Source of the DNA: an uncultured Gemmiger sp.
Lineage (GTDB): Bacteria > Bacillota > Clostridia > Oscillospirales > Ruminococcaceae
NCBI GenBank assembly: GCA_944388135.1
Contig: CALXHP010000003.1
Coordinates: 33,481 to 97,480 of the forward strand
Direction of reading: 5' to 3'
DNA length: 64,000 nucleotides
Shown here: positions 27,661-55,697 of the stretch, piece by piece
Layout: each line of letters begins with the position of its first letter
How positions within the stretch are numbered: position 1 is the first letter of the stretch
Translations under genes and position numbers: made by a program
Notes under the pieces: generated by a model
Seen by the model: only the letters and a program-made list of their open reading frames with translations
The model's database searches: none
Told to the model about the DNA's origin: nothing

Positions 27661-28035
27661 TCATCCGTGCTTTTCCCCGGATGGGCAGGCGATTTTCATC
27701 AGCTCCTCGATCATTTCATGGAGCAGCCTGGCCTGTTCCGTATCCGCGGCCGTATAATACACCTCTTTGCCCTCTCTGCGGTTGACGATCAGGCCGGCCG
27801 ACCGAAGCAGCTTCAGATGATGGGATACGGCCGGGCTGCTCATTGCAACCGTCGCCGACAGATCCACCACGCACGCCTCACAGTGGCACAATACCCAAAA
27901 GATCCGCAGCCTGCTTCCGTCGCCCAGCTGCTTGAAGATCTCCGCCAGGGTCTGGAAATTTTCCCCGCCGGGGGGATTCTGCCAAGTTTCTTTCCCGCTC
28001 CGGCCAGGGTCCTGCGGCAAATCCATCTTTTCCAT
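27661..28035 (-). CDS. ArsR/SmtB family metal-type repressor
   Basis: The 124-residue protein has the winged helix LGDGSRLRIFWVLCHCEACVVDLSATVAMSSPAVSHHLKLLR; Cys-His-Cys-x2-Cys in CHCEACVVDL is the alpha-3 metal-site pattern of CadC/CzrA-like sensors. ATG 28035 has GGAAGGTGAT upstream. It lies 53 bases after the sirtuin genes and 30 bases before the RpiR gene, on the same strand. A metal ATPase operon 5 kb away has an ArsR-type palindrome and may be its target. Confidence 0.85.
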   Translation of the reverse strand: MEKMDLPQDPGRSGKETWQNPPGGENFQTLAEIFKQLGDGSRLRIFWVLCHCEACVVDLSATVAMSSPAVSHHLKLLRSAGLIVNRREGKEVYYTAADTEQARLLHEMIEELMKIACPSGEKHG

Positions 28036-28088: not shown

Positions 28089-28931
28089 TCATGCCCTTCC
28101 CGACGCCGCCCGGAGTGCGGACAGGACCTGGCTCAAAGAGCCATCCAATCCGAAGGATTTGTCCCGTATCTTGTCGGGGATAAAAACCTCCCCCAGGTTC
28201 ACGGTGATATAGACAGCGCGGGGTTCCTGTTCCACCAGCTGCATCAGCGGCGCTTTGATAAGCCGGTTCCGCCAGCCCACCCCCAGTTCCAGTACCACCA
28301 GCCGTTTCCCGTGGTATCGTTCCAGAAAGGCCCGGTATCGCCGCGCGGCCCCCTCCCGGGGGATCATGGAGGGACCGGCCGCCATCTGGATCTCCATGGG
28401 GCCGCCGCAGTGGGGGCAACGGGGGATCAGACCGGAGGGCACCCTGCCGTTCCGTTCGGAAGCAGCCATCCGCTCCACCAGGTCCAAGGCAGGATACAGC
28501 CCCGGATGGCAGGGGCGGGCACACTGCATGGTCAGCCAGTTGCCCTCGATCTCCTCGATCTTTTCCGGAGCAAATCCGCTCATCTCAAAGTGGCATTCCC
28601 CGTTGGAGGTAACGATAAAATAGTCCTTGTCACCCACGAGGGCTTTCAGATCCAGCATCACCTGCGTGGGCTGATACCCACTGCAATATTGATGGATCAG
28701 CCGAGCCCAGAATGCCCACTTTTCTTCTTCCGACGGCCAGCGGGCCGCCATCCCCTGCAGCAGGCACCACAGGCCGTATTTTTTCTTGAAGTCACCGAAC
28801 CACCTTTCAAAAGCCGGATCATCCGCAAAAAGATGCAGGCCTTCGGTGATGGACAGTCCGTTGCTGGCGCCGATCAGAATGGCATCCGCTTCACGGATCT
28901 TCTCCGCGATGGGTTTGAGGTCACACACCAC
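28089..28931 (-). CDS. Sirtuin-like protein, class M type, copy 1 of the array
   Basis: This 280-residue protein has a Rossmann-type start ADAILIGASNGLSITEG (15-31), a TSNGECHF segment in place of the TQNID loop of sirtuins, and a zinc ribbon of four Cys (QCARPC and CPHCGG). The catalytic His-Gly of deacetylase sirtuins is IEGN here, so normal deacetylation is unlikely. Class M sirtuins (SirTM) lack this His and act as protein ADP-ribosyltransferases. Its start overlaps the stop of copy 2 by 11 bases. It is the most diverged copy (Glu instead of Gln at the key site). Confidence 0.8.
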   Translation of the reverse strand: MVCDLKPIAEKIREADAILIGASNGLSITEGLHLFADDPAFERWFGDFKKKYGLWCLLQGMAARWPSEEEKWAFWARLIHQYCSGYQPTQVMLDLKALVGDKDYFIVTSNGECHFEMSGFAPEKIEEIEGNWLTMQCARPCHPGLYPALDLVERMAASERNGRVPSGLIPRCPHCGGPMEIQMAAGPSMIPREGAARRYRAFLERYHGKRLVVLELGVGWRNRLIKAPLMQLVEQEPRAVYITVNLGEVFIPDKIRDKSFGLDGSLSQVLSALRAASGRA

Positions 28932-29802
28932 TGTATTCTCCTTTCTGTATCTGCCGCAGGGCTGCCAGCGTTTCCGCCAGATCCCCCTGAATGGACAGAC
29001 TCCGTTCTCTCAGGTATTCCGGCGCACCGGAAGCCGCCTGGTTCAGACAGGCATAAAACACCCCTTCATTTCTGGCCGTCAGTTCCCAGAAGGGCAGTTT
29101 GATGATGCCGGGCGTCATCTCCCCCACCCCCAGTTCCAGAAGGAGGAGCCGCTTTCCCGGCTGCTCCAACAGCCAGTGCCGCAGAAAATCATGGTAGCGG
29201 GTCAGGTTTTGCTGCCAGGCACTGCCTTCCAGAAAGGTATCGTCCCGCACCCAGGGCACAAGGATCCGGCCGCAATCGGGGCACCGGGGCACCTCACGTT
29301 CCGGCAGCCGCACCCCCTGCAGCCTGCGGGTCAGCCTTTCCACCAGTTCCCGGTTCTCCCACAGCTTGTCCTGGCAGGGCTGGCTGCACTGACAATACCC
29401 AAAATCCCCCTGAAAGGTACAGATCTTCTCTTTGGGGAACACCCGGGAGAACTGCCCGTCCACATTGGTGGTCAAAACAAAGACCGGTTTACCATCCACG
29501 ATTTCCTTCAGGTCAAGATACGGCTGTCCCGTGGGGGCCTCCCACATGGCGCGAATGTACTGGCTGTAGTAGCCCCATTGCTCTCCGTAGCTGGAAAAGC
29601 AATGATAAAACCCGGCAAAGGGAGAGGTAAATCCGTAATATGCCCGGAATCTTTTCAACGGGCGGGACAGTGCCGGTGACCAATGATAATGGTCGTACCC
29701 CGCCGCGCTGGACAGGCCCGAGCCGCCGCCGATGAGGATGGCGTCCGCCCGGTGGATCTGCCGGACCAGCGCTTCCATTTTATTCCGCTGCTGTAGATTC
29801 AT
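28921..29802 (-). CDS. Sirtuin-like protein, class M type, copy 2 of the array
   Basis: ATG 29802 (AGAAGG upstream) gives 293 residues. Features: HRADAILIGGGSGLSSAAGYDHY near the start, LTTNVDGQFSRVFPKEKI, then FQGD where deacetylases have His-Gly, and Cys pairs CQCSQPC and CPDCG for zinc. It keeps the TTNVD NAD-contact motif and the KRLLLLELGVGEMTP segment near the C-terminus. Gln in place of the catalytic His is the SirTM pattern. The start overlaps the stop of copy 3 by 23 bases, so translation is coupled. Confidence 0.83.
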   Translation of the reverse strand: MNLQQRNKMEALVRQIHRADAILIGGGSGLSSAAGYDHYHWSPALSRPLKRFRAYYGFTSPFAGFYHCFSSYGEQWGYYSQYIRAMWEAPTGQPYLDLKEIVDGKPVFVLTTNVDGQFSRVFPKEKICTFQGDFGYCQCSQPCQDKLWENRELVERLTRRLQGVRLPEREVPRCPDCGRILVPWVRDDTFLEGSAWQQNLTRYHDFLRHWLLEQPGKRLLLLELGVGEMTPGIIKLPFWELTARNEGVFYACLNQAASGAPEYLRERSLSIQGDLAETLAALRQIQKGEYSGV

Positions 29803-30700
29803 TCTTGCCTTCTTTCTGTTCCATGACCGCCACGGCATCCCGCAGCACTGCGGCAATGTCCTCCCGAATCGCCCATCCTTTCTGAGACAGTTCCCGGGGC
29901 AGCAGGGCGTCTTTGGGGTTGATGGTAATGTAATAGGCCTGCGGCAGGGAATAGGTCAGGTTCCAGAAGGGTTCCTGGATAAACATGGGGGTCATACACC
30001 CCACCCCCAGTTCCAGAAAAAGGAGCTTCCGTTCCCGGTTGGCTGTCAGAAATTCCCGGATTTTCCGGTATTCGTCCCGGTACTTTTTCCCCTCCAGGAA
30101 CGTATACCCCCGCACCCAGGGTTCCATTTCTGCCCCGCACCGGGGGCAACGGGGGATCAGCTCCGGCGGGATGCAGAGGTTTTCATCGATCGCCCGGTTC
30201 ATTTCATACACCATCTCTTGATTCCAGTAGATTTCGTCGTGGCACCGGCGGCTGCACTGATAATACCGGGAATCCCCCTGAATCGCGCTGAGCTTTTCTT
30301 CCGGGACCAACCGGGTGAACTGGAAATCCTGGTTCGTTGTCATGATATGAAAATTTTTCCCGCGGAGCAGACGCATCAGATCATAATAGGGCTTTCCCGT
30401 GGGGCACTCATATTCCATATAGGTCATACGGGCCAGAAAAGCCCAGCGGGCTTCCGGTGATGGGTAACGGTAATAAAATCCGTTGAACGCCCCTACGAAT
30501 CCATACTTTCGGTGAAAGTCCCCCAGATAGCGCTCAAACATGGCGTCGTTGTGATAAAAGAAGTCAAATCCGCAGGATGCGGACATGCCGGCCGCAGCCC
30601 CTACCAGAATTGCCTGCGCCCCGTCGATTTTGTCCAGCAGGACCTGCACATTCTGACGATGGGCAGAAGATTCCGCAGAACTTTTCCGATTCAGCAGCAT
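29780..30700 (-). CDS. Sirtuin-like protein, class M type, copy 3 (first in operon)
   Basis: ATG 30700, 11 bases after GGAGGG, is preferred to the TTG at 30709, giving 306 residues. The NAD loop is GAQAILVGAAAGMSASCGFDFF, followed by MTTNQDFQFTRLVPEEKL, then IQGD at the catalytic-His position, and zinc Cys in QCSRRC and CPRCG. LLFLELGVGCMTPMF is shared with the other copies. As first gene it follows an AT-rich promoter with a long inverted repeat shared with the divergent Rrf2 gene. Confidence 0.84.
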   Translation of the reverse strand: MLLNRKSSAESSAHRQNVQVLLDKIDGAQAILVGAAAGMSASCGFDFFYHNDAMFERYLGDFHRKYGFVGAFNGFYYRYPSPEARWAFLARMTYMEYECPTGKPYYDLMRLLRGKNFHIMTTNQDFQFTRLVPEEKLSAIQGDSRYYQCSRRCHDEIYWNQEMVYEMNRAIDENLCIPPELIPRCPRCGAEMEPWVRGYTFLEGKKYRDEYRKIREFLTANRERKLLFLELGVGCMTPMFIQEPFWNLTYSLPQAYYITINPKDALLPRELSQKGWAIREDIAAVLRDAVAVMEQKEGKNESTAAE

Positions 30701-30727
30701 AGTTGACAAAGCCCTCCATAGTTGTTA

Positions 30728-30777
30728 TTATAAAATTTACATGTTGCAATTCTATCATGTTATTTTATAAATTACAA
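30728..30777. promoter_or_regulatory. Divergent promoter with long inverted repeat (Rrf2 operator candidate)
   Basis: The arm 30728-30743 (TTATAAAATTTACATG) mirrors 30756-30770 (CATGTTATTTTATAA) with one indel. On the minus strand TTGTAA (30772-30777) and TAGAAT (30749-30754) are 17 bases apart, so the repeat covers the sirtuin promoter. A plus-strand TTGCAA at 30744-30749 may start the rrf2 transcript. The stretch is far more AT-rich than its surroundings. Confidence 0.68.
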
Positions 30778-30807: not shown

Positions 30808-31266
30808 ATGAAATATTCCACCAAGCTGAGTGACACACTCCATATTCTGGCCTTTCTGAGTATGGGTGCCAGCCAACGGATCACGAGCGCCAAAATTGCC
30901 GAAAGCGTAAAAACCAATCCGGCCTATATCCGGCAGCTGATGGCCGCCTTAAAAAAGGCCGGCCTCCTTACCAACACCCAGGGGCAGGCCAACGCGGAGC
31001 TGACCAGACCTCCCCGTGAAATCACCGTGCTTGATGTCTACCGGGCCATTGAAGGCACCAAGCCGCTGCTGCATTGGGATATCGATACCAACCCGGACTG
31101 CGGGGTGGGCATTTATGTGCAGCTGAGCATCGCCCACATGTATCAGGAAATCCAGCAGGCAGCCGAGCAGAAGATGCAGGCCATCACCCTGCAGGATATC
31201 CTCGACCTCTACCACCGGAAACTGGAGTCTGCCGCCCCGGAACGGGAGACGGAAGTGATTCCATAA
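30808..31266 (+). CDS. Rrf2 family regulator (sirtuin/patatin locus)
   Basis: The 152-residue protein has an Rrf2 winged helix (ITSAKIAESVKTNPAYIRQL, about 24-43) and wing (GLLTNTQGQANAELTRPPREITVLDVYRAIEG). It has one Cys (NPDCGVG, about 95), fewer than the three of FeS-type Rrf2 proteins such as IscR and NsrR, so an intact FeS cluster is doubtful. It is divergent from the sirtuin array and 13 bases ahead of the patatin gene; autoregulation and control of both sides are inferred from the shared palindrome. Confidence 0.85.
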   Translation: MKYSTKLSDTLHILAFLSMGASQRITSAKIAESVKTNPAYIRQLMAALKKAGLLTNTQGQANAELTRPPREITVLDVYRAIEGTKPLLHWDIDTNPDCGVGIYVQLSIAHMYQEIQQAAEQKMQAITLQDILDLYHRKLESAAPERETEVIP

Positions 31267-35774: not shown

Positions 35775-38700
35775 TCAGGACACGACCTGAGTGAAGTGGA
35801 TCTGTTTGGGCATCAGCACCGGTTCCACCTTTTCCTGGAGATAGGCGTTGAGCTTGTCCAGATCGGGCTGCTCCCGGCCGGTAATGTCGGCACACAGCTC
35901 CATGCGGTGCTCGAGCCCCCAGGTGATGTAGGCCTGGGCGGACTCCACCCCCTCATAGGCGCAGAGAACCCGCTCCAGCTTGCCCAGATCCAGGAAGTCC
36001 CGTCCGGTGAGGGTCTCCATCATGATGGTACGGCCGCACTGTTCCAGAATGTCCAGGCTGCCGTCCGGCAGAATGCGGGCATGCAGACCGGTCTGGTACA
36101 GCACACCGGGGCCGTAGGGGTTGGTGATCTTGTCGGTCCAGTTGGCGGTGGGATGGTCCATGATGTACAAGGCACCCCAGGCGCCCAGGGGCTGCTTGCG
36201 GCAGGTCTCGTCAAAGACGTAGGCTTTCACCTGCTCTTCCCCGTCCACATCCGGGAGGAGGGCACTGCCGGCAACGGCGTTCACGTCCGCCGCCTTCACA
36301 AAGTAGTGATGGGGGAACAGATGCTGGGGCAGGTGCTTTTTCAGCCGCCGCACCGAGGGCTCGGTGAGCATGGCCTTGACAATGACATCCATGCATTCCA
36401 TGAAGATCTCCAGCTGCTGGCGGTCAAACCGGTTGTCCCAGTACCGCAGCTCGTAGAAATAGAAGCCCTTGGCGTTGGACATGACCTGGAGATGGAAAGG
36501 CAGGGAGTCCAGCTGAATGTGTTCCCGGTGGGCGGGGGCGCCGCCGATCTCGTCCAGATTCAGGATGTCGCCCTGATACTGGAAGAACATCTCGTCGGAG
36601 TGCAGGCAGGAGATATGGCACCGCATGGTCTCCATGATCTGCCGGGCGGACCGGGAGAGCAGCTGGGGCACCGTCTCGTGGGCCAGGTTGGTGTACCGGA
36701 ACAGGTAGCTCAGGAAGAGCGGGCCTGCCAGCCGGGTCCAGCGGCTGTCGGTACGGCCGCTGTGGATGCTGCTGCTGACCACATCCTTCTCATTGCTGAA
36801 GATGGAGATGCAGTAGTTGAAGGCGGTGAGGAACATGACATTCTCGGACACCTTGTGCTTGGCGCAGAAGGCGTTGAGCTGGTTGGGGCTGACGGTGAAC
36901 CGCCCCTTCAGAGAAGCGTTTTCCCCTTTGTCCAGATCATGGAAGTCTTTGCGGTTCAGGATGCTCTTTTTGATGCGGGCGTCCTTCAGCAGTTCCCGAT
37001 AGTACTGAATATCCTGCTCCCGCTTGCCCTTCTTCTCCCGGGCCTTCTCGTCCAGCACGTACTCAAAGAGGGTGTAGCTCTCCTTCTCCACCGGCTCCCC
37101 GGCGTACAGACGGTTCAGGTCCTCAAAAAGGATCTTCAGGGTCATGCCGTCACCCACAATGTGGGCAATGTCAAGGAACAGATAGTTGGCGCTGTCGGTC
37201 TGGTAGATGCCCGCATGGTAAAGGGGCTCGCCCTTGCCGTAGAGGAAAGGTACCAGCAGATGCTCCCGGGTCTGGGCAAATTCCTCATCGCTCTGGCGGC
37301 AGATGGGCACATGCACCCGCAGTTCGTCGTGGCGGAAGCTCTTGTAGGCGCCCTCGTCCATCTGGATGATGGATTTCAGACCGGGATGGACGTCAAACAG
37401 GTCCTCCACGGCGGTCTGGAGCCGCTGCAGGTCCACGCTGGGGTCCAGATGGATGAGGGAGGGCAGGTTGGCGGTGGTGTTGCCACGCATGACGTAGGCA
37501 AAGTAGATCTGCAGGTTGGTGAGGGGGTACACCGCACGGACGGAGTAGTCCACCTTTTCCTCCTGCTGTTTTTCCTGGTAGTAGGCCTCCAGCTTTTCCA
37601 CGCTGGCATGGGCCATCAGGTCGTCCAGGGTGATGGAAAAATCCATCTTGTCGGACAGGTCGGTGAGGAGCATCACGCTGCCCATGGAATCCATGCCCGC
37701 CCGGTAGAAGTCGGTGTCGATGCCGAAATCCTGGTGGCCCAGCACCCCGGCCACGCAGTCATAGATCTTCTGCTGCAGTTCGTTTTTAGGCAGGATGCGG
37801 TTTTTCCGTTCCTCCTCCTCGGCCTGCTTCTGGCTGAAGTAGTGGGTACGCTTGATCTTCCGGGAGCTGGTCTTTTCAAAGGGGTTCTTGCGCACCCGGA
37901 AGTTGAGGATCCGCTTGAAGGTGGGCAGCTTCTGGTTGATCTTGGCAATGCTCTCCCCTACCGCGGCCTGGATGTCGGGGATGTCCATGTCCTCGGCGTA
38001 CCGGAAGTTGGGGTAGATCTCGGCGGTGATGGTGTCGTTCTCCTCAAACACCAGAATGTCCTCCACAATGGGCTCATCGTCGAACATGTTCTCGATCTGC
38101 TCCGGGGCCACATTCTCGCCGTTGCTGAGAACGATCAGATTCTTTTTCCGGCCGGTGAGGTAGAGGAAACCCTCCTCATCCAGATAGCCCAGGTCGCCGG
38201 TGCGCAGCCAGCCGTCCTCGGTCATGGCTTCCGCGGTGTTTTCCGGGTCTTTGTAGTAGCCCATCATCACGGAGGGGCTCTTGACCTGGATCTCTCCGTC
38301 CACAATGCGCACCTGGCAGCGGGCTACCACCTTGCCCACCGACGCCACCTTGTCGGGGCGGTCCCAGTCGGGGGCGGAGATGACGGGCGAGCATTCCGAC
38401 ATGCCGTAGCCCTGGCCGATGAGGATGCCCATATCCTGGTAGTTCTTGGCCAGTTCGGGGGTCAGGTAACCGCCGCCGCAGATGATTTTCCGCAGGCGGC
38501 TGCCGAAAACTTCCTCCTTCAGCTGCTGGGGGGTCATCTCGGGATGCTGGGTCTTGACCATCATATACCGGTTGAACAGGGCCTTGGCCACCATAGGCAC
38601 CGCCCGGAAGGAGGTGGGCTGGAACAGTTTCAGATGGTCCGCCAGCTTGCTCAGGTCCCGGTTGAGGCAGAGCAGCACCCCGTACCGCATGCCTGCCAGC

Positions 38701-39377
38701 ACATCACTGTTGATGCAGAATACATGATGGATGGGCAGGATGTTCAGGTACACCTCGTTCTCATCTTTGTAGGTGGAGGAGAAGGCGTTGTCGATGAGGT
38801 TCCGGTTGGACAGCATGACGCCCTTGCCCCGGCCGGTGGTGCCGGAGGTAAAGAGGATCATGGCACAGTCGTTCTCCGAGACATCGGGGGTGACCCGGCG
38901 GCCGGCGAACTCTTTCAAAATGTTGTCCGAGCAGGGCACATGCTTGCCGTGCTGCAGGGATATGTAGGTTTTGATCCGAGGGCAGGAAGCCTTGACCCCC
39001 TCCACCAGGGGCGCATGCTCCCAGTCATAGAACAGGATGTCCACATCGGAACGGGTCAGACAGTCCTCCAGACCCGCCACATCCAGCTGCACGTCCAGGG
39101 GCACCACCGTGTTGCCGTTGGCCATGACGCCCAGCATCACCGCCAGGTAGTGATGGCTGCTGCTGCCCAGCAGACCCACCTGGACTTTGCGGCCTGTCTT
39201 GGCATCCTGTTCCTTGACCCAGGCCGCAATGGCATGGCACTGCGCCACAAATTCCGCATAGGTCACATCGTAGACCACGTCGTTGTCTTCATATCGCAGA
39301 AAAACTTTGTCGCCGTATTCCTTGCCTGCATTTTCCACCAGATCATACACTGTTTTGGTGTTTTCGTAGGTAATCAT
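35775..39377 (-). CDS. Stand-alone NRPS-like protein: adenylation, carrier, condensation, partial adenylation tail
   Basis: ATG 39377 (AGGAGGGAG) gives 1,200 residues. Residues 1-550 are an AMP-binding acyl/amino-acid activating domain (LFTSGTTGRGKGV, GYGMSECSP, YLTGRKKNLIVLSNGENV). A carrier domain follows with phosphopantetheine Ser564 in AGMDSMGS. Residues about 640-1070 form a condensation domain whose HHxxxDG motif is AHIVGDG (catalytic second His739 kept). The last 100 residues resemble an adenylation C-terminal lid (LPDGSLDILEQCGRTIMMET). No thioesterase, transporter or tailoring gene adjoins it. The substrate could be a fatty acid or an amino acid. Function unknown. Confidence 0.85.
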   Translation of the reverse strand: MITYENTKTVYDLVENAGKEYGDKVFLRYEDNDVVYDVTYAEFVAQCHAIAAWVKEQDAKTGRKVQVGLLGSSSHHYLAVMLGVMANGNTVVPLDVQLDVAGLEDCLTRSDVDILFYDWEHAPLVEGVKASCPRIKTYISLQHGKHVPCSDNILKEFAGRRVTPDVSENDCAMILFTSGTTGRGKGVMLSNRNLIDNAFSSTYKDENEVYLNILPIHHVFCINSDVLAGMRYGVLLCLNRDLSKLADHLKLFQPTSFRAVPMVAKALFNRYMMVKTQHPEMTPQQLKEEVFGSRLRKIICGGGYLTPELAKNYQDMGILIGQGYGMSECSPVISAPDWDRPDKVASVGKVVARCQVRIVDGEIQVKSPSVMMGYYKDPENTAEAMTEDGWLRTGDLGYLDEEGFLYLTGRKKNLIVLSNGENVAPEQIENMFDDEPIVEDILVFEENDTITAEIYPNFRYAEDMDIPDIQAAVGESIAKINQKLPTFKRILNFRVRKNPFEKTSSRKIKRTHYFSQKQAEEEERKNRILPKNELQQKIYDCVAGVLGHQDFGIDTDFYRAGMDSMGSVMLLTDLSDKMDFSITLDDLMAHASVEKLEAYYQEKQQEEKVDYSVRAVYPLTNLQIYFAYVMRGNTTANLPSLIHLDPSVDLQRLQTAVEDLFDVHPGLKSIIQMDEGAYKSFRHDELRVHVPICRQSDEEFAQTREHLLVPFLYGKGEPLYHAGIYQTDSANYLFLDIAHIVGDGMTLKILFEDLNRLYAGEPVEKESYTLFEYVLDEKAREKKGKREQDIQYYRELLKDARIKKSILNRKDFHDLDKGENASLKGRFTVSPNQLNAFCAKHKVSENVMFLTAFNYCISIFSNEKDVVSSSIHSGRTDSRWTRLAGPLFLSYLFRYTNLAHETVPQLLSRSARQIMETMRCHISCLHSDEMFFQYQGDILNLDEIGGAPAHREHIQLDSLPFHLQVMSNAKGFYFYELRYWDNRFDRQQLEIFMECMDVIVKAMLTEPSVRRLKKHLPQHLFPHHYFVKAADVNAVAGSALLPDVDGEEQVKAYVFDETCRKQPLGAWGALYIMDHPTANWTDKITNPYGPGVLYQTGLHARILPDGSLDILEQCGRTIMMETLTGRDFLDLGKLERVLCAYEGVESAQAYITWGLEHRMELCADITGREQPDLDKLNAYLQEKVEPVLMPKQIHFTQVVS

Positions 39378-39668
39378 ATTCTCCCTCCTGAAAGTATCAC
39401 ACCATGTATCCAATCGCACATTTGATCGTCTGTCAATTTTTTCTCTTTCCTGCGCCCTTTTTTGCAGGGGCGCTATAGTTGAGTATACCACATAAAAGGG
39501 AAAATGCACCTTGACAAATGTACAAATTATCAAAATATGATCAATTTTCAGAGAAACGCAAAAAATTTACCTAAAAAAATGGAAATAATTCCGCAGGTTC
39601 CACAAAAATTTCAGGCCGGAAAAATCCTACAGAAAGGAGAAGTTTGTCAAAAAACTGAACAAAGGTTT
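39378..39668 (-). promoter_or_regulatory. Leader and likely promoter of the NRPS-like gene
   Basis: A TATACT on the minus strand (39482-39487) lies about 105 bases before the NRPS-like start, with no convincing -35. The rest of this AT-rich gap up to the terminator at 39669 shows no reading frame or clear structure. Confidence 0.35.
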
Positions 39669-41038: not shown

Positions 41039-41215
41039 TTATACACAGGCGGCACACTGAAAGAACCGGTGATCTTCCTGGATTTCCGCCACCTTGTCCT
41101 CCGGGTAGCGCTTGACAAACTGGGTATCCTGGTTGGTGGTCAGTACAAAGAAGTCCTTGCCCTCCACCAGCGCGTTCAAATCCTGATAAAGCCGACGCAC
41201 CGGAGTGGTCTGCCA
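41039..41215 (-). pseudogene. Fragment of a fourth sirtuin-like (class M) gene
   Basis: About 55 codons encode RLYQDLNALVEGKDFFVLTT, then NQDTQFVKRYPEDKVAEIQE and DHRFFQCAAC. This aligns with the middle of copy 3 of the array at 30 kb (LLRGKNFHIMTTNQDFQFTR, IQGDSRYYQC). N-terminal NAD loop and the C-terminal half are missing; the frame stops at 41039. Its upstream end joins the recombinase remnant at an inverted repeat. Confidence 0.72.
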
Positions 41216-41235
41216 ATGGGTCAACCACTCCGGTG
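41198..41235. repeat. Perfect 12-bp inverted repeat at a gene-fragment junction
   Basis: CACCGGAGTGGT (41198-41209) and ACCACTCCGGTG (41224-41235) frame 14 bases. It sits exactly where the sirtuin fragment meets the recombinase remnant and may mark an old recombination or deletion end. Confidence 0.6.
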
Positions 41236-54076: not shown

Positions 54077-55079
54077 TCACATCTCAATCATAACTTTGCC
54101 GCGGAGCGGACCCTTTGCCACCAGCTGCAGGGCCTCGTTCGCCTGCTCCAGGGTAAAGACCCGGTCATCCACAGCCGGGCGTATCTGCTGCTGTTCCACG
54201 ATTTCGGTGATTTTGCGCAGCTGGGCGCCGTCCGAACGGACAAAGACAAACCGGTATTCCTTCCCCTGCTTTTGGGCAGCCTTGTCGTATTTCCGGCCCG
54301 CCAGGGCAAAGAGTTGTTTTTTTCCATCCGGGGAACTGCCTGCGCTGGGCAAAGACCTTGTTGGGCCCGGTGCGCAGACTCACCAGCCGCCCGCCCTGTT
54401 TCAGCACCGACAGCTCATGGTCGAACTCCGCCGGGCCCAGTGTGTCGATCACCCCGTCCAGGCCGGACAGCTGCTCCCAGTAATTTTCCTGTTGGTAGTC
54501 AAGATACCGTTCCACGCCCATGGCCACAAACTGGTCCTTCGCCCGGGCGTTGCCGGTGACCAGGACCTGCAGCCCCAGGGACTTGGCCAGGGGCACCGCC
54601 ATCTGTCCGAAGCTGCCCGACCCGCCGGGAATCAGGATGGTCTGGCCCGGCTCTGCCTCCAGTTCTTCGGTGAGCGCCTGCCAGGCGGTGAGACCCGTCA
54701 GCGGGATGGCCGCCGCCGTGGCAAAATCGTAGCCTGCGGGCATTTTGGCGATCTCTTTCTCATCCACCGTCACGTATTCCGCAAAGGCGCCGATTTTATC
54801 GAGGGGCAGGCGGGCGTATACCTTGTCCCCTTTCTGGAAGTTCCGCACCTTGCGGCCCACCTGCTCCACGATCCCCGAACACTCATTCCCCAGGGTCAGG
54901 GGTTTGGGATAATCCTGGATCAGTTTGACACTCCCCGTCAGGATCAGAAGATCCACCGGGTTGACCGCTGCTGCCTTGACCCGGATCAGCACCTCGGTAT
55001 CGGAAATTTCCGGCACGGGTACCTCCCGCAGGACTGTCTGGATGGTTTTGGCGTAGCGATCGATCTGAACTGCTTTCAT
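54077..55079 (-). pseudogene. Zinc-type alcohol dehydrogenase-like quinone oxidoreductase with A7 frameshift
   Basis: ATG 55079 opens a medium-chain dehydrogenase: EVLIRVKAAAVNPVDLLIL, GNECSGIVEQVG, and NAD(P) loop ILIPGGSGSFGQMAVPLA (about 148-165). At about 54333-54339 a run of seven A on the coding strand shifts the frame; with six A the protein continues as KKQLFALAGRKYDKAAQKQG and ends EALQLVAKGPLRGKVMIEM at 54077, a normal family end. The whole would be about 333 residues. A homopolymer slip in the cell or a sequencing error are both possible. The upstream palindrome suggests control by the divergent Rrf2 protein. Confidence 0.8.
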
Positions 55080-55140: not shown

Positions 55141-55165
55141 AGATGTAACATCTTTATTTACATCT
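55141..55165. promoter_or_regulatory. Rrf2-type operator candidate
   Basis: AGATGTAA (55141-55148) and TTACATCT (55158-55165) are perfect inverted copies 9 bases apart, between the oxidoreductase operon and the divergent Rrf2 gene. A weaker AGATGTAAT/AATTACACT pair lies at 55186-55209. Confidence 0.65.
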
Positions 55166-55247
55166 TTCACAGTGTAGCACGTGCTAGATGTAATGTCAAG
55201 AATTACACTGAAAAAATCATCTTTTCAGGAAAGGATTTACACGCACT

Positions 55248-55697
55248 ATGCAGATCAGCATGAAATGTTCCGTTGCGGTGCACTGCCTGATTTTTATCCA
55301 CGAAGCGAAAGGGGTTGCCAAGGTAACCAGCACGCTGCTGGCGGAAAGCACGGGGTGCAATCCCGTGGTGATCCGCAATATTCTCAGCGCCCTGAAAAAG
55401 GCAGGGCTCATCACGGTGCCCCGGGGCACCGGCGGCGCCGTGCTCTGCGCCGATTCCTCGGAGATCACCCTCTACCAGATCTATACCGCCCTGGAGCCGG
55501 AAGGGGTGACCTCCCTCATCGGGATTCATCCCTGTCAGGGACGCCCCTGCCCGGTGGCGCAGAACATCCGCCAGGTGCTGCAAAAACCCTACCATAAAAT
55601 CGAGGACGCCGTCAGGACCACCATGGAAAGCATCACGTTGCAATCCATGCTGGATGATTTTCATGACCTTGTACAAAAGAATGACACCACCTCCTGA
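55248..55697 (+). CDS. Rrf2 family regulator (redox operon)
   Basis: The 149-residue protein has an Rrf2 winged helix (VTSTLLAESTGCNPVVIRNI, about 26-45) and wing (PRGTGGAVLCADSSEITLYQ). Cys in the C-terminal part are HPCQGRPCP plus CADS, so a redox- or FeS-linked sensor is possible. It is divergent from the oxidoreductase/nitroreductase/EFR1 operon with a shared palindrome. It ends at a terminator. Confidence 0.86.
   Translation: MQISMKCSVAVHCLIFIHEAKGVAKVTSTLLAESTGCNPVVIRNILSALKKAGLITVPRGTGGAVLCADSSEITLYQIYTALEPEGVTSLIGIHPCQGRPCPVAQNIRQVLQKPYHKIEDAVRTTMESITLQSMLDDFHDLVQKNDTTS

Follow-up and report, generated by a model that had tools for sequence, protein, structure and literature searches.

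Three overlapping minus-strand genes of a gut bacterium, located at positions 28089-30709 of the 64,000-nucleotide stretch of DNA analysed here (the window), encode sirtuin-fold proteins (Table 1). As far as the sequences go, it is safe to claim that these genes form a conserved array derived from SirTM (class M) sirtuins, that the array is free of macrodomain genes in nearly all of the stretches examined, and that it combines two kinds of active site. The three proteins P0001, P0002 and P0003 belong to three lineages, which we designate alpha, beta and gamma, respectively.

Table 1. Array genes and adjoining features in the window
Feature	Position	Strand	Details
P0001, alpha-type array SirTM	29780..30709	-	309 aa; model mean pLDDT 91.9
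P0002, beta-type array SirTM	28921..29856	-	311 aa
P0003, gamma-type array SirTM	28089..28931	-	280 aa; predicted sirtuin fold, mean pLDDT 94.6; best solved match 5a3a
Rrf2-family regulator, divergent	30808..31266	+	Nearest solved structure YwnA (1xd7)
19-bp inverted repeat, operator-like, adjoining alpha start	30723..30741		Pattern match
Second 19-bp inverted repeat	30758..30776		Starts 35 bp from first
ArsR-family regulator	27661..28035	-	53 bp downstream of gamma, co-directional

Identity and active sites of the array proteins

The three overlapping genes of the original prediction were found as described, with the exception of the ATG start assigned to the first of them at 30700. A TTG at 30709 is the more likely start of P0001, because a GGAGG sequence sits a few bases 5' of it; several relatives carry an ATG at the position matching this TTG. 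The true start of P0002 may be an internal ATG at 29802, in which case 23 bases of its overlap with P0001 would be left. The motifs previously read from the proteins (TTN...IQGD in P0001, TTN...FQGD in P0002 and TSN...IEGN in P0003) were correct, as were the four zinc Cys of each protein, which align to residues 145, 149, 180 and 183 of SpySirTM. Active-site residues and SpySirTM numbering follow the report on SpySirTM and SauSirTM (Rack et al., 2015; PMC4518038).

Searches with phmmer placed SpySirTM (5a3a) at the top among solved proteins for the three array proteins, with E-values of 1.7e-43 (P0001), 1.2e-38 (P0002) and 2.9e-42 (P0003). The second-best solved match was in all cases the fungal macrodomain-SirTM fusion Mfs1 (8rsn) which, unlike the array proteins, carries a macrodomain fused to the sirtuin. 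The predicted structure of gamma, the only one whose fold was compared, matched 5a3a (E 1e-26), then 8rsn (2.5e-18) and then SIRT3 (1.7e-11). Although the array proteins share their overall fold with canonical deacylase sirtuins, the catalytic His of the deacylase HG motif was missing from all three in the alignment numbered on SpySirTM, none of them matched the Pfam SIR2 model at E-values up to 5, and matches to the NCBIfam deacylase models were weak and far under the cut-offs of those models. The SIR2 model, when searched against the own genome, retrieved one canonical sirtuin elsewhere, and the array proteins were not among the matches. The profile and structure comparison suggested along with the original prediction therefore places SpySirTM nearest to all three proteins by sequence, and to gamma also by fold, with the deacylases further away.

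On their residues, the three array proteins are not equivalent. P0001 and P0002 have QG (Gln137) in place of HG, together with Asn118, Arg192, a Met at 233 and the TP of the GVGxxTP loop; P0003 carries EG, keeps Asn118, has an Ala at 192, lacks this TP and contains N34, H122, E137 and N234. None of the three strictly follows the class motif GVGx[NT]TP (GVGCMTP in P0001, GVGEMTP in P0002 and GVGWRNR in P0003). The likeness of the array proteins to SpySirTM and SauSirTM thus comprises the sirtuin fold, the four zinc Cys and Asn118, with Gln137 and Arg192 of SpySirTM common to alpha and beta, whereas the occurrence of three paralogue lineages in tandem and a gamma with Glu137 and His122 and without Arg192 set the arrays apart. 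The original assignment of all three proteins to class M is therefore supported in part: P0001 and P0002 keep the SirTM Gln and Arg, while the lineage of P0003 is a different one, in which Glu is invariant and Arg192 missing, so that a class M function is only putative for this protein.

A carboxylate facing the ribose could serve as a base, the role played by His in deacylases, and gamma might accordingly be seen as an NAD-dependent deacylase that uses its Glu in this way, with its paralogues as auxiliary proteins. We consider this distinctly improbable, since SirTM is the nearest relative of all three array proteins and since deacylase activity was reported as absent from SpySirTM and SauSirTM on the substrates tested (PMC4518038).

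Three lineages and the linkage of gamma to alpha

Scanning one genome collection with P0001 yielded 207 relatives, of which 79 loci were kept; some of these loci are near-copies, so that the locus counts given below are not independent. At least two full-length family genes were present in 70 of these 79 loci from other genomes, which, like the phmmer E-values above, is far beyond chance. The 195 sequences were reduced to 189 once identical ones had been merged, 17 ORF pieces with fewer than 230 matched residues were excluded from both the tree and the residue table, and the residue table was made without two class M rows that fell outside the groups (L059_12893 and L127_1651). A FastTree tree with 190 rows united the array proteins in a single group of 170 (support 0.884), made up of alpha (80), beta (22) and gamma (68) subgroups; when eight plasmid rows were added, the support for this group fell to 0.70. 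A second tree was built from 54 chosen rows, i.e., 36 array proteins, 17 macrodomain-linked proteins including SpySirTM, and one canonical outgroup. There, all 200 bootstrap trees (100%) separated array from macrodomain-linked rows; the branch between the two had a support of 93/74, and that of the outgroup was very long.

Intact gamma was found in 69 of the 79 loci, in one of which (L009) alpha is a piece, and gamma pieces in six more (L011, L042, L049, L050, L060 and L075); the remaining four (L057, L063, L069 and L080) come close to contig ends just past the array. Since alpha was the query of the scan, this result shows that alpha is accompanied by gamma and not the converse. We also compared the alpha and gamma distance matrices across the 60 loci with one of each, and obtained an r of 0.43 that none of 1000 permutations equalled, a correlation that linked inheritance would produce as well. 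The original prediction had proposed different targets or a multi-subunit system for the three copies; the close pairing of alpha with gamma speaks in its favour, and the complex itself is putative.

A search for gamma in 196 genomes of the class gave matches of about 230-268 bits that at first resembled lone gammas. We left such matches out of the gamma counts, because each of the seven loci returned from outside the own genome has QGD, finds its highest score with SpySirTM and contains a macrodomain match. In a further search, which like the others also gave weaker or partial matches, nine of the 11 non-centre loci had a macrodomain match, and none of the eight motifs read there had EG. Searches for relatives also gave one match in a Staphylococcus phage. 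A single open frame at L049:7926-9290 consists of a full alpha followed by what appears to be half of a gamma, the C-terminal one. Two alpha-gamma pairs were read from lactobacillar plasmids: gamma (L154:5965-7296 and L155:6022-7356) is fused at its C-terminus to a cupin-like domain of the Cupin_5 type, above the cut-off in L155 only, and the neighbouring alpha has lost the zinc Cys.

Inspection of the residue table revealed Asn118 and Gln137 in 80/80 alpha rows each and Arg192 in 79/80, the corresponding values for beta being 22/22, 21/22 and 20/22. All 68 gamma rows have Asn118, His122, Glu137, Asn234 and N258, and none of them has Arg at 192; Asn34 was found in 67/67 rows with a letter at that position. 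Asn34, His122, Glu137 and Asn234 were present again in all four of the plasmid gammas from Bacilli that were checked.

These data bear on whether gamma could be a catalytically dead regulatory or scaffold subunit, with all the chemistry being performed by alpha and beta on different targets. The activity of SpySirTM was reported to fall dramatically when Gln137 or Arg192 was mutated (PMC4518038), and gamma may therefore be inactive: its Arg192 is gone, its Gln137 is replaced and the TP of the GVGxxTP loop is missing, while the alpha-gamma pairing would fit a complex. However, decay is not expected to yield an invariant E137, H122 and N234 next to a fully kept N118 and N258, nor the recurrence of the new residues in plasmid gammas of Bacilli. 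This invariance disfavours simple decay, and we regard a dead gamma as somewhat unlikely.

Known SirTM partners and NAD-salvage neighbours

Linkage to a macrodomain gene gives class M its name, and the extended class M operon also contains GcvH-L and LplA2. Among the 79 loci and the window (locus lengths of about 3 to 17 kb), no match was obtained for GcvH or lipoate ligase, and a macrodomain match only in L059, where it adjoins a separate SirTM that groups with the macrodomain-linked rows. The lack of the known partner genes beside the array of the window, as originally noted, was thus confirmed. In the own genome, the assembly of which is 83% complete, searches for GcvH, lipoate ligase and macrodomain were all empty; lipoylated GcvH-L was therefore set aside as a target for this genome, and the role transferred from known class M systems looks inapplicable here. 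An ADP-ribosylglycohydrolase-family match elsewhere in the own genome (L173 on C56, an open frame of 1018 aa) makes a conventional eraser possible.

We extended these searches to 51 array genomes, a chosen subset of the genomes behind the 79 loci, and to 28 chosen among those 51. Full-length GcvH was present in three of the 28 and lipoate ligase in nine, which calls for a different acceptor. Some macrodomain match was obtained in 44 of the 51. Weak GcvH-family matches covering 35-48 profile positions in eight genomes were not counted as GcvH; we take them to be biotin-carrier-like domains. Macrodomain-linked SirTM rows, located away from the arrays, were obtained from 17 of the 51 genomes. These macrodomain/SirTM pairs are of the same superfamily as the array proteins, with Gln137, Asn118 and Arg192 in 18/18 rows (SpySirTM included). 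They differ from the arrays in their adjacent macrodomain and, unlike some arrays, had neither HD nor NAD-salvage genes matched in the control stretches.

The presence of such pairs, of lipoate ligase in some array genomes and of a macrodomain match in most of them would be compatible with an ordinary class M system whose lipoylated carrier is encoded elsewhere and whose modification is reversed by a distant macrodomain. Given the scarcity of full-length GcvH in array genomes and the empty searches for all three partners in the own genome, we judge this the least credible of the readings considered here, and highly improbable.

Genes related to NAD metabolism were found beside part of the arrays. 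Across 82 array loci (the 79 loci, the window and two plasmids), HD proteins were encoded in 17, nicotinamidase-like proteins in 10, NAPRT in nine and NadE in five (one of these five matches, in L152, is weak, with 41 bits), and only 19 of the 82 had at least one of HD, nicotinamidase, NAPRT and NAD synthetase. HD is fused to nicotinamidase in five loci, and two Bacillales plasmids have the gene order alpha-gamma-HD-NAPRT-isochorismatase. No HD, nicotinamidase, NAPRT or NadE gene lies beside the array of the window; NAPRT and isochorismatase-family genes are present in the own genome away from it. Solved structures gave no informative relative for the HD protein.

None of 45 control stretches, 36 of them with SirTM and macrodomain, matched the HD or NAD-gene queries; these queries were drawn from the array loci and the control stretches were mostly shorter (about 2-4.5 kb), and the comparison, although fair for HD because most HD genes adjoin the array directly, carries less weight for NAPRT and NadE. 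That NAD-salvage genes accompany some arrays hints, as a separate line of evidence, at NAD consumption by the array. The survey of neighbours put forward with the original prediction added two elements that it did not contain, an Rrf2 regulator beside the array and NAD genes beside the arrays of some relatives, both of which distinguish the arrays from the SpySirTM and SauSirTM systems.

The arrays are sporadic and also occur on plasmids, and a survey of the family detected clear gamma in only three of 197 genomes, the own genome included, each with three adjacent matches. Along with a likely use of NAD, this distribution is what might be expected from an anti-phage defence that depletes NAD like SIR2 effectors. 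PADLOC, however, gave no matches for P0001-P0003 at E-values up to 0.01, and the scan of four neighbours turned up two matches, both weak (E 0.0035 and 0.0013) and to families that look unrelated; moreover, the NAD-salvage neighbours point to recycling rather than depletion. A defence role is, in our view, improbable.

A putative NAD-consuming module and its probable regulation

The best explanation, to which we give about an even chance, is a regulated NAD-consuming ADP-ribosylation module with an acceptor other than GcvH-L, gamma as partner, recycling of NAD, and repression by the Rrf2 protein. It builds on what was established by sequence, namely the family, the three lineages, the residue changes, the linkage, the repeats and the known partners missing from what was searched; the mechanism, with NAD cleavage and a partner role for gamma, is what we infer from the active-site residues and from NAD-salvage neighbours that a minority of relatives possess, and the acceptor, the repression and its signal are likewise putative. 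Alpha and beta would split NAD and pass ADP-ribose to an acceptor different from lipoyl-GcvH-L. Gamma, as the regular partner of alpha and beta, keeps features of the NAD/ADP-ribose pocket, with a ribose face rebuilt by Asn34, His122, Glu137 and Asn234, and would most likely act at another step of this ADP-ribose chemistry. It might hydrolyse NAD, or it might take ADP-ribose off or transfer it again, a task for which other SirTMs depend on a macrodomain. Recycling of the nicotinamide freed would then fall to nicotinamidase, NAPRT and NAD synthetase, the genes of which some hosts carry next to the array.

More tentatively, gamma might represent a third sirtuin catalytic type, a built-in partner and possible eraser in an ADP-ribosylation cycle that runs without a macrodomain and has NAD recycling of its own. 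The sites would then be of three types, with His in deacylases, Gln in SirTM, and Glu plus a gained His in gamma, a scheme that we offer with the same reserve.

In a 2024 study (PMC11490716), GcvH-L is given as the only known SirTM target and the targets of other SirTM systems are left open, a question that the arrays make testable. Gamma is an example of a sirtuin pocket in which a Glu is invariant, and the array together with the NAD-recycling genes of some relatives points to a little-known NAD-consuming module. In the literature searched (titles and the starts of abstracts, with most subscription papers outside), no description of tandem SirTM arrays or of their link to NAD salvage was found.

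Concerning regulation, an Rrf2 homologue was present in 57 of the 79 other loci (58/80 with the window) and lies divergently beside the array in 53 (54/80). The pattern TGTWA-N9-TWACA was found in 45 of 48 Rrf2-array intergenic regions, with two copies in 21, compared with a mean of 0.125 and a maximum of two regions after shuffling; the pattern was drawn from these same 48 regions, so that the comparison is not blind, and gaps below 40 or above 320 bases were excluded from the count. The window carries two copies of the pattern (Table 1). According to the explanation favoured above, the Rrf2 protein would probably repress the array through the paired repeats, and a redox-type signal would lead to its release. 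A second TGTWA-N9-TWACA pair is located at 55144-55207 of the window, between ORFs 54165-55079 (-) and 55248-55697 (+), which from reading their sequences we take to be another Rrf2-like gene and an oxidoreductase-like gene; this arrangement hints at a redox signal. Allowing up to two mismatches, the repeat had 12 matches in the own genome versus six for a reversed control, and therefore a wider regulon is not evident.

The ArsR cluster was found in 19 of 80 array stretches, and it is uncertain whether this regulator is part of the array system. CGGC-domain proteins occur near arrays in 15/80 stretches, with C_GCAxxG_C_C in 4/80 (for example, L073:7052-7381 and L054:3059-3454). Elsewhere in the window, 35775-39533 (-) encodes a protein of 1252 aa in which AMP-binding, carrier and condensation domains were recognised, and a further SirTM fragment of 71 matched residues (44.6 bits with P0001) lies at about 41041-41227 (-), preceded upstream by what are presumably recombinase remnants.
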